From contig CAIPKZ010000270.1 of NCBI GenBank assembly GCA_903865775.1, positions 1 to 36,874 on the forward strand: a stretch of DNA of 36,874 bases, written 5' to 3'. Below are positions 29,072-32,736 of the stretch, in pieces (the stretch's first letter is position 1; each line of letters opens with the position of its first letter). The notes under the pieces were generated by a model that made no database searches, had not been told where the DNA came from, and worked only from the letters and a program-made list of their open reading frames with translations. This stretch comes from an uncultured Prolixibacteraceae bacterium. GTDB taxonomy: Bacteria; Bacteroidota; Bacteroidia; Bacteroidales; Prolixibacteraceae. Position numbers and translations under genes: made by a program.

Positions 29072-29374
29072 CTACCTTTCAAAAAGAACAATCCCAATCC
29101 TCTCAATATGATCAAGCAAATCCTGGTTGGTAAGATATTGGTAAAGTGAAAGATCGAATGTAAAAGGCAGCAACAAATCGTCCAACTCCCAGGAAACCTG
29201 ATTTAAAATCGTCAGATCCAAAGATTCACCCAGTAAAGTCAAATCAACGTCCGAAGCAGGTTTAAAATTTCCTTTTGCTCTTGAGCCGTAAAGAATAACT
29301 TTTTCAACTTCAGTGTGCGTTCGAAAAACAGACCGAATGGCTTCAACGACCTCATCCTGTATACCGTATTTCAT
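29072..29374 (-). CDS. MNT-type nucleotidyltransferase (MntA-like antitoxin)
   Basis: A 100-residue minimal nucleotidyltransferase. The motif GSX10DXD is exact: Gly30-Ser31, then ten residues, then Asp42-Val-Asp44 (GSRAKG...SDVDL); Asp74 (TFDLSLY) may be the third carboxylate. In type VII toxin-antitoxin systems such proteins add AMP to a tyrosine of the paired HEPN toxin and silence it. The HEPN gene is immediately upstream on the same strand (94-bp gap containing a short GCCGGA/TCCGGC stem). The length is normal for the family. The role as antitoxin follows from pairing and motifs, not from direct evidence. Confidence 0.88.
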   Translation of the reverse strand: MKYGIQDEVVEAIRSVFRTHTEVEKVILYGSRAKGNFKPASDVDLTLLGESLDLTILNQVSWELDDLLLPFTFDLSLYQYLTNQDLLDHIERIGIVLFER

Positions 29375-29468
29375 TCGAATATAATTTGTTTTTTAAGGCC
29401 GGATGTAACTCGCATGTCCGGCTGCTGCGGATTCTTTCTTGTTTGTGTTTTTAACGGACATGCTCGTT

Positions 29469-29951
29469 TCATAATTCACCGTCGAATAAACCTGGATTAT
29501 CATCTGATTTCAATGTTCCCATTGTCTGGCTGAATTCCTGAAACAATCCGTAATAATGACCAATAATTTTCAGAATAATCATATTTGCAACTTCCTCATT
29601 GTAAGTGTGTGAAGTTTCGTTACGGCTTTTAATCATGTCCATCCATCCTTCGGCATCACTAATCAAGCCCAATTTAAACGCTTCCCTGGTAGAATCTCTT
29701 GATCCGCCAACGTCATTATTTCCCTGATATTCAGCATAGTCTTTCATCACATTCCAGGCTAACTGATGGGTATATTCAAACCTTTGAATTAAACCTTCCT
29801 TCAATATTTCCTGAACTGACTCATTCGATTGATATTCATTTCCGGTCTTATTCCCATCAACAATATTTACTGCCTTCGTCAATTTGAGAAGTGCCTTTTG
29901 GAAGTTTGAAAACCTCTGCTCCCATCGAATATCTTTTTGTTCTTCTCTCAT
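29469..29951 (-). CDS. HEPN domain protein, HI0074-like (HepT-type toxin candidate)
   Basis: A 160-residue all-helical protein of the nucleotidyltransferase substrate-binding (HI0074) group. FEYTHQLAWNVMKDYAEYQG (about residues 58-77) and SRDSTREAFKLGLI are typical. The RX4HXY motif of HepT RNase toxins is intact: Arg110-Asn-Glu-Thr-Ser-His115-Thr-Tyr117. Arg and His would form the RNase site, and Tyr117 is the position that the partner MNT enzyme adenylylates. The start overlaps the stop of the preceding PAS gene (ATGA), so translation is probably coupled. Having a sensory gene in front of a HEPN/MNT pair is unusual. A non-toxic nucleotidyl-transfer complex is the alternative. Confidence 0.85.
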   Translation of the reverse strand: MREEQKDIRWEQRFSNFQKALLKLTKAVNIVDGNKTGNEYQSNESVQEILKEGLIQRFEYTHQLAWNVMKDYAEYQGNNDVGGSRDSTREAFKLGLISDAEGWMDMIKSRNETSHTYNEEVANMIILKIIGHYYGLFQEFSQTMGTLKSDDNPGLFDGEL

Positions 29952-30304
29952 GGAATGATGGTATCTGACGATTTATCTCTAATGTGGTGCTGCAATTTCT
30001 CCGGAATTTCATACGAAATCTCTACAACGCCTTTGAATTCACCATCTTCAATCCAGGGAGTCTGGTGAATCATTTTATGGATTCCTCTCTTTTCAATGGA
30101 GAAGGAATTAGGGATTGGTTCGGCTAACATTTTTATCAGGAAGGTTCGGGCAGGTTCCGGATGGCATTCAATCAGGCTTTTGCCTATCAAATCACCATCA
30201 CCGGATTTGGCAAATTGCATTTTAGAGCGTTCATTCATGTAAACGACAATCCCCTTCCGGTCGCAAACGGTGATTGCACCTAAAAATCCATCCGTCCAAT
30301 TCAT
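29948..30304 (-). CDS. Stand-alone PAS domain protein
   Basis: A 118-residue protein consisting of one PAS fold: GFLGAITVCDRKGIVVYMNE (first strands), a helix FAKSGDGDLIGKSLIECHPE, then FSIEKRGIHKMIHQTPWIED and GVVEISYEIPEK. The ECHPEPA segment after the GKS helix resembles PAS domains attached to DUF438/hemerythrin-like proteins. No effector domain is present, so it probably senses a ligand or redox state and acts through a partner. It begins 3 bp after the GH16-like gene and its stop overlaps the HEPN start (ATGA), tying it to both. The ligand is unknown. Confidence 0.75.
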   Translation of the reverse strand: MNWTDGFLGAITVCDRKGIVVYMNERSKMQFAKSGDGDLIGKSLIECHPEPARTFLIKMLAEPIPNSFSIEKRGIHKMIHQTPWIEDGEFKGVVEISYEIPEKLQHHIRDKSSDTIIP

Positions 30305-30307
30305 AAC

Positions 30308-31744
30308 TTATACTTTGGCATGCTGATAAAAACGCACCCAATCGATTTCAAACCGGTGAGGCAAGCTATCCGACGGTTCGGCAACCACGATGGATGCCGC
30401 GTTCAAATGCATTTTAAAAGCAGGAACATGATCGGTTACAGTCCAGACAATCCGGTCGTTAATTTTCCAAACCAATGAATGGGCTGACCATTCGAGTCTG
30501 AAAATATAGAATTCACCGGTTTTTAAGCCTGAAATACTTGTGCTTTCGGCATGAATTCCGTGATCAGAATTGGTAAATAATCCTACCCTGTTTTTTGCAC
30601 CCATTTCAACCAGATTAATTTGCGGTGAGTTATCCTCACCCAACAAATAAATCGCATCAACCAAATGATTGTCTGGTGAATATTTCACCTTGGCTTCCAG
30701 TATTCCATGTTTCCACCACTCGGTGGCTGCATTTGAAACGATACCTGAGGTGTAATCGAATTCCTGTTCAACAAATCCGAATGGGATACGCCACTGCATG
30801 CCGGTGGCCTTTTCCTTCCGAACTTCAATTTTCAGAGATTTTCCATCATGCACTACATTTTTGCCATCTGTAAAAGCGTGTAAATCGCCTGGCTGGGAAT
30901 AGTTTTGGCCCAACGATTCATTGGCACGATAGGATTTGGTCATCCATTTCTGCGCATCCAGTTGATTGGTATCAAAACAATCTTCAAAAACCAAATGCCA
31001 TTTTTTGAAAAAATCAAAATCGGCGGAATGCCTGTATTTCAGATATTTAATTAATTGAGGCAACTTCTTCAATTCAGCGAAACGCTTTTCCATTTCCGAA
31101 TCTTCAGTCTTTTCCCATTTGTGTTTATCTTCCAAATAGCCAACCCGTGCAAGAAATTCTTCTGATGCGGTGATTACCTGAAGTTCTTCCAGACGTTTCC
31201 GTTCGGTTGAATCGGTCATCAATTCATAATTTCTAAACGCAGAAGATTGCCTGTATTTCTTAAAAAACTGAACTTCTTCGGAGCTTTTCAAGTTCAGATA
31301 TTCATTAAAAATGGCATATTCCTTCGATTCTTTATCCTTCTTTTTTAATGCCTCAAATGAATGATGCTCGACTGCAGTTTTTAGTTCCTTATATTTAATC
31401 AATATTTCGGAATCCGAAATCTTTTCAAATTTTTTCAGCTCATCAGAATTCAGAGTTGAATAAAATTTCTTCAGCCGGCCATTTTTGCTCAAACTTTTAA
31501 GTTCGTGCAACAAAACCTCTTCTTTGCTTCCTTTCAGACTCAGTTGCTGAATTTCCTTTTTTTTCTGCTTGAATGTGTCTGAATTAACCAGTAAATCAAG
31601 TTTATGGTATTCCTTCAACTCCTCGGATTTCAAAAACTCACCATATTCATGATAGTCCAAGAGCAATGCTTCATGAGCACTTTCAATTTTTTCAGTAGAT
31701 TTTATTAGCCCGAAGGTGCTGGCAAATAGGATTTTAAACGACAT
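30308..31744 (-). CDS. Helical-repeat protein fused to an altered GH16-like domain
   Basis: A 478-residue protein. Residues 25-250 are highly charged, helical and repetitive: at least four degenerate copies of a unit such as FLKSEELKEYHKL...SDTF (37-58), LNSDELKKFEKI (98-109), LKSSEEVQFFKKYRQSSAF (152-170) and LPQLIKYLKYRHSADF (228-243). Residues about 250-478 have a GH16/laminarinase-like jelly roll (FEDCFDTNQLDAQKW, WWKHGILEAKVKYSPDN, FRLEWSAHSLVWKINDRIVW, FEIDWVRFY). The catalytic ExDxxE reads Gln375-Ile-Asn377-Leu-Val-Glu380, so two of three acids are amides and hydrolysis is unlikely. No convincing signal peptide is seen. The start at 31744 is preferred over 31801, which adds a basic, unrelated stretch. 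It leads the PAS-HEPN-MNT genes, 3 bp before PAS. Confidence 0.75.
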   Translation of the reverse strand: MSFKILFASTFGLIKSTEKIESAHEALLLDYHEYGEFLKSEELKEYHKLDLLVNSDTFKQKKKEIQQLSLKGSKEEVLLHELKSLSKNGRLKKFYSTLNSDELKKFEKISDSEILIKYKELKTAVEHHSFEALKKKDKESKEYAIFNEYLNLKSSEEVQFFKKYRQSSAFRNYELMTDSTERKRLEELQVITASEEFLARVGYLEDKHKWEKTEDSEMEKRFAELKKLPQLIKYLKYRHSADFDFFKKWHLVFEDCFDTNQLDAQKWMTKSYRANESLGQNYSQPGDLHAFTDGKNVVHDGKSLKIEVRKEKATGMQWRIPFGFVEQEFDYTSGIVSNAATEWWKHGILEAKVKYSPDNHLVDAIYLLGEDNSPQINLVEMGAKNRVGLFTNSDHGIHAESTSISGLKTGEFYIFRLEWSAHSLVWKINDRIVWTVTDHVPAFKMHLNAASIVVAEPSDSLPHRFEIDWVRFYQHAKV

Positions 31745-31925
31745 AATCGGTTTCTTTATTTTGTCCTGAATTCGAAGTTTTAAAAATAGTAAATAAAACA
31801 AACTTCACCACTATTTTCGGTCACGTGATGAACTTCAGATTTATAAAATGAGTTATGATTCCGGAGGAGTTATTCAACAGGATTATTACTGCCAGCTATA
31901 GCAATTCGTTTCGAAGCATTTGTAG

Positions 31926-32384
31926 TCAGCTTCCAATAATCTTCAAGGCTTCCTTCACATGTTTTTCAGGAGACAGCTGTGATTTAAAAACATGAACCAA
32001 ACATCCGGCAGGATCGAATATATATGTAACTCGGCCAGGTAACAAGCCAAATAAATCGAAGGGAACGCCAAGTAAATGCCTAAGTTCATTTCCCGTATCA
32101 GAAAGTAAGTGAAAAGGTAATTTATGCTTTGTTTTAAACCGCTCGTGCGAATCAGGATTATCGCCGCTGATGCCAAAAACCACTGCTCCCGCATCTTCCA
32201 AATCCTTATACGAATCGCGAAAACTGCAGGCCTCTTTGATGCATCCCGGAGTTTCATCTTTTGGATAAAAAAACAGAATCAGGTATTTTCCGTGAAATGT
32301 TGAAATATCAACAGGTATATGGTTTTCATCGTTCATGATGAAATGTGGCAGATGATCCCCAACAATTAATTTCTTTACGGCCAT
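31926..32384 (-). CDS. bcp: Thiol peroxidase, Bcp/PrxQ type peroxiredoxin
   Basis: A 152-residue peroxiredoxin. FFYPKDETPGCIKEACSFRD contains the peroxidatic Cys48 and, five residues later, the resolving Cys53, the arrangement of the atypical two-cysteine PrxQ/Bcp group. VVFGISGDNPDSHERFKTKH and LPFHLLSDTGNELRHLLGV are also characteristic. It reduces hydrogen and organic peroxides using thioredoxin, and a thioredoxin gene lies 52 bp upstream on the same strand, so the two are probably one unit. The length is normal for the family. The 123-bp gap to the start of the next leftward gene is at 31745-31925 and holds nothing recognisable. Confidence 0.95.
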   Translation of the reverse strand: MAVKKLIVGDHLPHFIMNDENHIPVDISTFHGKYLILFFYPKDETPGCIKEACSFRDSYKDLEDAGAVVFGISGDNPDSHERFKTKHKLPFHLLSDTGNELRHLLGVPFDLFGLLPGRVTYIFDPAGCLVHVFKSQLSPEKHVKEALKIIGS

Positions 32385-32436
32385 AATTTCAATGTTTAAT
32401 TAATTGAATGAAATCCTAATTCCAAAAGTCAGAACA

Positions 32437-32736
32437 TTAAAGCAATTCTTTCAGAGCAATTGAAATATCAGATGTACCCTGAACTCCTTTCCCACTCCAC
32501 TGAATCTTTCCCTGCAGAAACACCACAACGGTCGGAATGTTCCGAACTTCACATGATGTGGCAATTTCAGGAAAATGATCTACATTGACCTTTATGATTC
32601 GTACATGCTCCTTGAACTGTTCTTTCACTTCCTTCAGAATTGGCGGCATCAATCGGCAAGGAACACACCAATCGGCATAAAAATCAACCAAAACAGGTCG
32701 CGCCGAATTTACTATTCGATTAAAACGTCTATTCAT
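32437..32736 (-). CDS. Thioredoxin
   Basis: A 99-residue single-domain thioredoxin with active site WCVPC (Cys24 and Cys27; Val replaces the usual Gly), preceded by PVLVDFYAD and followed by the cis-proline loop RNIPTVVVF. No signal peptide is present, so it is cytoplasmic. It overlaps the end of the upstream DUF6132 gene by 8 bp and is followed by bcp, for which it is the likely reductant. The CVPC variant is common in Bacteroidota thioredoxins. Confidence 0.93.
   Translation of the reverse strand: MNRRFNRIVNSARPVLVDFYADWCVPCRLMPPILKEVKEQFKEHVRIIKVNVDHFPEIATSCEVRNIPTVVVFLQGKIQWSGKGVQGTSDISIALKELL

Follow-up and report, generated by a model that had tools for sequence, protein, structure and literature searches.

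The window, by which we mean the complete stretch of 36,874 nucleotides that was analyzed, carries on its reverse strand a gene whose product joins tandem helical repeats to a head that is related to glycoside hydrolases of family 16 (GH16) and is devoid of their catalytic triad (Table 1). Translation of this gene yields 478 amino acids followed by a stop codon, in agreement with the coordinates and the reading frame given in an initial annotation. The open reading frame is opened by a TTG codon at position 31801, and translation from there would add a stretch beginning with FYLLFL. As judged from related sequences, the ATG at position 31744 is the likely translation start, since in two members of the same genus (L157 and L161) only two codons separate the preceding in-frame stop codon from the same ATG. 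The window genome holds no second copy of the gene (the sole match to the protein is the protein itself), and it possesses five other GH16 genes.

Table 1. Position of the pseudo-GH16 gene, its predicted parts and the adjoining PAS gene in the window.
Feature	Coordinates	Strand	Evidence
Whole gene, pseudo-GH16 protein with helical repeats, 478 aa	30308..31744	-	Translation, relatives, purifying selection
N-terminal peptide, residues 1-16	31697..31744	-	Profile alignment, close relatives, low pLDDT
Helical repeat region, residues 17-246	31007..31696	-	Structure models, unit profile
Partial unit, residues 30-65 (later half of unit profile)	31550..31657	-	i-E 5.6e-7
Full unit 1, residues 73-140	31325..31528	-	Unit profile (i-E 1.3e-19), model
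Full unit 2, residues 140-210	31115..31327	-	Unit profile (i-E 1.7e-23), model
Partial unit, residues 213-248 (first half of unit profile), leading into the head	31001..31108	-	i-E 0.0018
Pseudo-GH16 head, residues 247-478	30311..31006	-	Pfam, fold comparison with 3azy_A
Family-specific hairpin, residues 311-331	30752..30814	-	Invariant W318 and G323, near-invariant F324
Former active-site strand QINLVE, residues 375-380	30605..30622	-	Site read in window protein and relatives
PAS-only protein, directly downstream of the pseudo-GH16 gene	29948..30304	-	PAS_4 23.0 bits, just under the cut-off of 23.1

The PAS-only protein is a single-domain protein of 118 amino acids that is present in most of the genus genomes searched and has distant relatives elsewhere in the order. 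A PAS-only gene directly follows the pseudo-GH16 gene in eight of 48 loci (the window, L031, L032, L033, L036, L038, L043 and L044), with a gap of 6 bases in the window and of up to 132 bases elsewhere. L038 comes from the named isolate Draconibacterium aestuarii Z1-6. When the neighbors in these 48 loci were clustered by BLAST, none was conserved throughout the order, and the most frequent cluster occurred in 9 of them. Relatives of the PAS protein (41-50% identity) also occur in four genomes (G001, G003, G005 and G012) that have no match to the profile of the helical part. Because such relatives live in genomes without the pseudo-GH16 family, we do not take the PAS protein as a partner and reject the notion of a dedicated pair; it is probably a lineage neighbor. 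Further downstream, at 29072-29951 on the same strand, a Polbeta nucleotidyltransferase (29072-29374) and an HI0074-type substrate-binding protein (29469-29951) form a HepT/MNT-like pair. In L033, too, the PAS gene is followed by matching genes, which are absent from this place in L031, L032 and L036, so that the pair looks like a mobile insertion. Upstream of the pseudo-GH16 gene, a PrxQ-type peroxiredoxin is encoded beside a thioredoxin (31926-32736, reverse strand).

Pfam finds a single domain in the window protein, GH16 (PF00722), matched by residues 294-470 with a score of 25.5 bits (cut-off 22). Neither form of the catalytic motif, ExDxxE or ExDxE, is present. The site instead reads QxNxxE, within the string QINLVE, and the initial annotation had identified Gln375, Asn377 and Glu380 correctly. 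To place this site among its relatives, we relied on 149 open reading frames matching the profile of the head, reduced to 115 by dropping those with identical last 150 residues. Two of these are gapped at the site, and among the 113 readable rows L076 and L064 are ordinary enzymes (E-D-E, a signal-like start, no match to the repeat unit), leaving 111 pseudoenzymes; contig ends truncate L114 and L105, and L116 is spread over two reading frames. Not one of the 111 reads E-D-E, and 36 different combinations are found instead. Over the 113 readable rows, the first position is occupied by H (50), Q (32) or E (20), the second by D (68) or N (32) and the third by K (55), R (18) or E (17); the commonest triad is H-D-K (22 rows), and others include H-N-T, Q-T-K and M-S-H. 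In the same alignment columns, E-D-E is present in 45 of 47 ordinary GH16 enzymes of the same order, and the two remaining rows (E-D-I) show the ExDxE variant of the motif (EIDIE and EIDVE). These 47 rows consist of L076, L064 and 45 GH16 controls of the order, five of them from the window genome; the controls also match the head profile of the family, were partly drawn from the best loci (at most 30) among 119 genomes, and lean to canonical enzymes.

QxNxxE is found in all 21 genus genomes that have the site, the window included, one further match in the genus being a fragment without it. The window protein is consequently not an isolated mutant among homologs that keep ExDxxE, a possibility that the initial annotation had raised and that the alignment of homologs rejects. 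The double change from acid to amide on which that annotation had placed its emphasis holds in so far as the catalytic triad is gone; the amide pair itself is the state of this genus, set within a loss common to the whole family, since the other relatives vary at these positions and never read E-D-E. By all these sequence comparisons, the key point is the loss of the triad and not a special amide site. A separate observation concerns L046 (from genome G335), a member from the window's family with 375 amino acids, a similar start (GMIPKSEKI), no match to the repeat unit and I-D-R at the site. It appears to be a divergent or a shortened form; we counted it among the 111 pseudoenzymes and set it apart when the conserved features of the head were scored.

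In the structure model, the head keeps the GH16 jelly-roll (3azy_A: Z 23.4, rmsd 2.6 over 215 aligned residues, 21% identity), and Foldseek matches it to 4dfs_A with E 1.7e-14. Upon this common core, several features set the family apart from the enzymes. The stretch from 311 to 331 comprises 19 residues in 110 of 112 family rows, as compared to six or fewer in 35 of the 47 rows of enzymes, where the alignment is in some cases only partial. Within it, W318 and G323 are kept in all 111 family rows having a residue there and F324 in 107 of 111, while the three are mostly missing from the enzyme rows. In 111 of 112 family rows, 7 residues make up the loop that connects residue 367 with the former active strand; the commonest length in the enzymes is 14. 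Lys352 is found in 108 of 112 family rows where 37 of the 47 enzymes have Arg, and Asn429 in all 109 family rows with a residue where 43 of the 47 enzymes have Asp. New features that stay constant while the old catalytic positions vary point to a head that has been rebuilt for a new function, one that would since have been kept.

The part in front of the head is predicted, in a model of the whole protein as well as in one of the helical part alone, to consist of short helices separated by short turns (residues 17-248). The whole-protein model (478 residues) has a mean pLDDT of 83.9 and a pTM of 0.64, so that the placement of the head relative to the stalk is unsure. The helical part alone reaches a mean pLDDT of 88.6 (pTM 0.63), with block means of 86-97 across residues 21-240 except for 78 and 68 in the blocks covering 121-140. 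In this model, a series of helices with lengths of 13, 10, 10 and 14 (or 13) residues recurs, and a fifth helix, 5 or 11 residues long, completes each unit of about 70 residues. With a profile of this unit, two full units and two partial ones are detected in the window protein. The profile derives from members of the family, the window's two full units included, so that these matches and those in the relatives arise partly by construction. These two units are 24% identical to each other, as compared to a mean of 20% and a maximum of 32% for shuffled sequences. It is not the window sequence alone that proves the repeat, but its relatives. They have between 0 and 10 unit-profile matches per protein, and their uncut open frames range from 328 to 907 amino acids, short and long members having similar starts. 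In the two longest (L026 and L136), units are spaced by 67-70 residues and neighboring units are up to 88% and 81% identical, respectively, a near-identity that points to copies duplicated recently and in tandem. The helical-repeat N-terminus described in the initial annotation is thereby substantiated, and the structure prediction that it had suggested for this region gave the tandem of short helices described above.

The same annotation had not recognized the type of repeat, and the libraries that we searched (Pfam, PDB folds and sequences, and viral folds) likewise hold no known family that matches it. Among 17 members examined with Pfam, no repeat family appears at E 0.1, the additional matches being five unrelated families with one member each (E 0.002-0.094). 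The helical part matches nothing at E 0.001 among PDB folds or in the viral fold library, and PDB sequences, when searched with a profile, yielded a single stray match (E 0.7). A second fold comparison, made with Foldseek's own candidates only, reached at best Z 6.9 with an rmsd of 9.3 over 209 residues; judged on predicted structures, this value is within the range that helical models attain by chance. The absence of relatives in Pfam and PDB does not prove a new fold. That the repeats may bind proteins is something we infer.

The N-terminal peptide is a third conserved element. A family motif, G-x-h-P-x-T-x-K-h-E, spans residues 12-21 and reads G12-L-I-K-S-T-E-K-I-E21 in the window protein, with K replacing P. 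In the profile alignment of 111 pseudoenzyme rows or one more, G is kept in 84, P in 73, T in 86, K in 68 and E in 99, with 6 to 13 of the rows gapped at these columns. Residues 1-16 share 13-14 of 16 positions (81-88%) with seven close relatives, as compared to identities of 60-68% over the helical part and 69-76% over the head. Both structure models give the peptide low pLDDT, as expected of a free docking peptide. The peptide is conserved and hydrophobic. It may dock to a membrane or to a partner.

A signal-like start is lacking, as the initial annotation had stated. By a simple hydrophobicity rule applied to both sets, the best mean hydropathy over 12 residues from any ATG within the first 80 residues, the pseudoenzymes have a median of 1.07 and a maximum of 2.12, and the best-matching GH16 controls a median of 2.70 and a minimum of 1.81. 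Values of 2.0 or above are attained by 1 of 111 pseudoenzymes and by 43 of 45 controls; the two ranges overlap slightly, as 9 of the 111 reach 1.8 or more and the lowest control 1.81. The 111 rows scored here and for the N-terminal motif differ slightly from those read at the site, in that L080 (no start) and the short piece of L116 are left out and L114 (no site) is included. The sole member above 2.0, L115 (from genome G304), has an earlier ATG followed by a hydrophobic stretch, 23 residues ahead of the start that is usual in the family. A signal peptide from a different start, which the initial annotation had named as evidence against its view, is rejected for the window protein by L157 and L161, which leave no room for one upstream of the ATG. 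Because no signal-like start is present, the pseudo-GH16 protein is presumably cytoplasmic. We dropped a possible link to type IX secretion because sprA is nearly universal in the order (371 of 393 genomes) and thus too common to discriminate.

Whole-protein matches occur in 116 of the 393 genomes of the order and matches to the helical-part profile in 98 of them. In the window's genus, the gene is present in 22 of 23 genomes and in all 16 good ones. A sample of 395 genomes from the phylum, searched with the helical profile at E 0.001, gave two matches, namely the window genome and a weak one (E 5.7e-4). A pattern scan with the window protein, which sets the scope of our search beyond the phylum, found 11 loci from named genomes (Prolixibacteraceae, Draconibacterium, Bacteroidales and unplaced Bacteroidota), all with Bacteroidota-type names. 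Phages gave no match to the protein, nor was a PHROG or a PADLOC match obtained, and four plasmid records match the GH16 head only, at 25-27% identity; we therefore reject an origin from phages or plasmids. Searches of open-licence literature brought up no paper on such a protein.

For a tree of the heads, we retained 159 rows and 227 columns, left out the motif columns, and used a quick IQ-TREE run under LG+G4 without bootstrap; seven terminal branches received a flag for their length, and five rows were less than half filled. A single branch (SH-aLRT 98) has the 47 enzymes on one side and every pseudoenzyme, also L046, on the other; the rows were aligned to a family-built profile, which possibly favors this split. 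The position of the pseudoenzymes on one side of one branch suggests a single origin. In comparisons with seven relatives over the helical part and the head, pN (0.14-0.26) is well under pS (0.63-0.88, near saturation), which indicates purifying selection.

Most likely, the protein serves to hold or to sense something within the cell rather than to digest sugar outside of it. We lean towards a cytoplasmic, non-catalytic tether or receptor composed of a peptide dock, a variable spacer and a binding head. Its N-terminal peptide would attach the protein to a membrane or to a partner, the repeats would serve as a spacer whose length can be adjusted, and the head would hold a ligand (glycan or protein) and leave it uncut. 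As no signal-like start is present, all of this would take place in the cytoplasm. A more specific version, which we put forward tentatively and consider unlikely as a whole, pictures a ruler or tether of adjustable length that is docked at the inner membrane and made of a five-helix repeat not described before. Its repurposed glycosidase head would be offered to a glycan in the cytoplasm, such as a lipid-linked precursor of a polysaccharide or an oligosaccharide that is stored or has been imported, and the status of this glycan would thereby be coupled to a partner in the cell. Such a protein would represent a new class confined to one bacterial order.

Several other readings have to be weighed against the tether or receptor. 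The head might be a pure protein-protein or structural cap with its sugar cleft closed, the whole protein scaffolding some complex. The constant extra hairpin and the loop of 7 residues (commonly 14 in the enzymes) beside the former active strand could close the cleft, and the former triad positions vary freely, unlike those of a kept binding site; the jelly-roll core is kept, yet this does not exclude a scaffold, and we regard this reading as possible, although not the probable one. Considerably less probable is an export without a classical signal peptide, by which the protein would bind its ligand outside of the cell in the manner of eukaryotic glucan-recognition proteins. In its favor, hydrophobic and signal-like starts are common among the ordinary GH16 genes of the order, sprA of type IX secretion is nearly universal there (371 of 393 genomes), the upstream start of L115 would be signal-like, and a GH16 protein of Aedes that is read as glucan-binding is likewise described as having no signal peptide (PMC6403176). 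Against export stand the starts themselves, since 1 of 111 members reaches at least 2.0 on the hydrophobicity rule versus 43 of 45 controls.

An enzyme with a changed mechanism, acting for example via the His or Lys at the old positions, would fit with H-D-K, a triad more frequent than any other (22 of the 113 rows with a readable site), but 36 triads in 111 rows leave no constant combination, and we consider this reading improbable to a still greater degree. The loss of the catalytic residues would also be compatible with the protein being the product of a GH16 gene in decay. Purifying selection, the near-universal presence in the genus and the constant new features of the head refute such decay as far as sequence can tell, and we give it practically no weight.

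The presumed tether or receptor is of interest beyond the single locus, as a whole clade of such proteins has neither a catalytic triad nor a signal-like start. Because the Pfam GH16 cut-off is passed, automatic annotation may count the protein as a polysaccharide-degrading enzyme. If the binding reading is true, we are dealing with a bacterial case in which an ordinarily exported glycosidase has turned into an intracellular binding module, one that rides on an expandable repeat without a name in the libraries searched. The suggested single origin would make this change of function open to direct test.

The individual parts of the protein can be compared with known systems. With alpha-helical repeats such as TPR, HEAT and Sel1, the stalk shares tandem short helices and a variable copy number; it differs from them in that no curated repeat profile of Pfam matches the window protein or the 17 members. 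The jelly-roll of the head is that of the bacterial GH16 laminarinases of Thermotoga maritima (3azx/3azy; profile similarity to 3azx_A, E 4.5e-17). Compared to these enzymes, the family has lost ExDxxE, has a longer hairpin and a shorter loop, lacks a signal-like start and carries helical repeats in front; the Thermotoga laminarinases lack the 311-331 stretch in the same way as the enzymes of the order. Three of 17 family members match the Pfam family SKN1_KRE6_Sbg1 (best E 1.9e-6), which we take to be the same group as GH16_2. Proteins of this GH16_2 or KRE6-SKN1 type are fungal. They resemble the family in being related to GH16 and in having no signal peptide, as stated for GH16_2 (PMC6827312), and a missing signal peptide is for this reason not by itself new for GH16. 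The sole characterized member of GH16_2 is described there as a cell-wall glucanase/transglucosylase (PMC6827312).

The eukaryotic non-catalytic GH16 proteins, i.e., the beta-1,3-glucan recognition and Gram-negative binding proteins of GH16_4, share with our family the GH16 fold and sequence and the loss of the catalytic residues. A signal peptide and secretion are usual for recognition proteins of this type. GH16 sequences lacking catalytic residues are read as binding proteins (PMC6827312; PMC6403176), and insect sequences without the catalytic glutamates as glucan-binding proteins (PMC6403176). The Aedes protein of the glucan-binding kind, reported in an excerpt of the latter source as devoid of a signal peptide (PMC6403176), resembles the window family, which is without a signal-like start by the hydrophobicity rule. 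The loss of one or both catalytic residues affects about 9% of GH16_4, 0.7% of GH16_3 and 1% of the other members according to the part cited of PMC6827312. There, the metazoan and fungal losses do not form monophyletic groups (PMC6827312), and the insect losses constitute a paraphyletic group in the corresponding part of PMC6403176. In contrast to these metazoan and fungal proteins, the family described here is bacterial, falls on one side of one branch, and carries a helical repeat.
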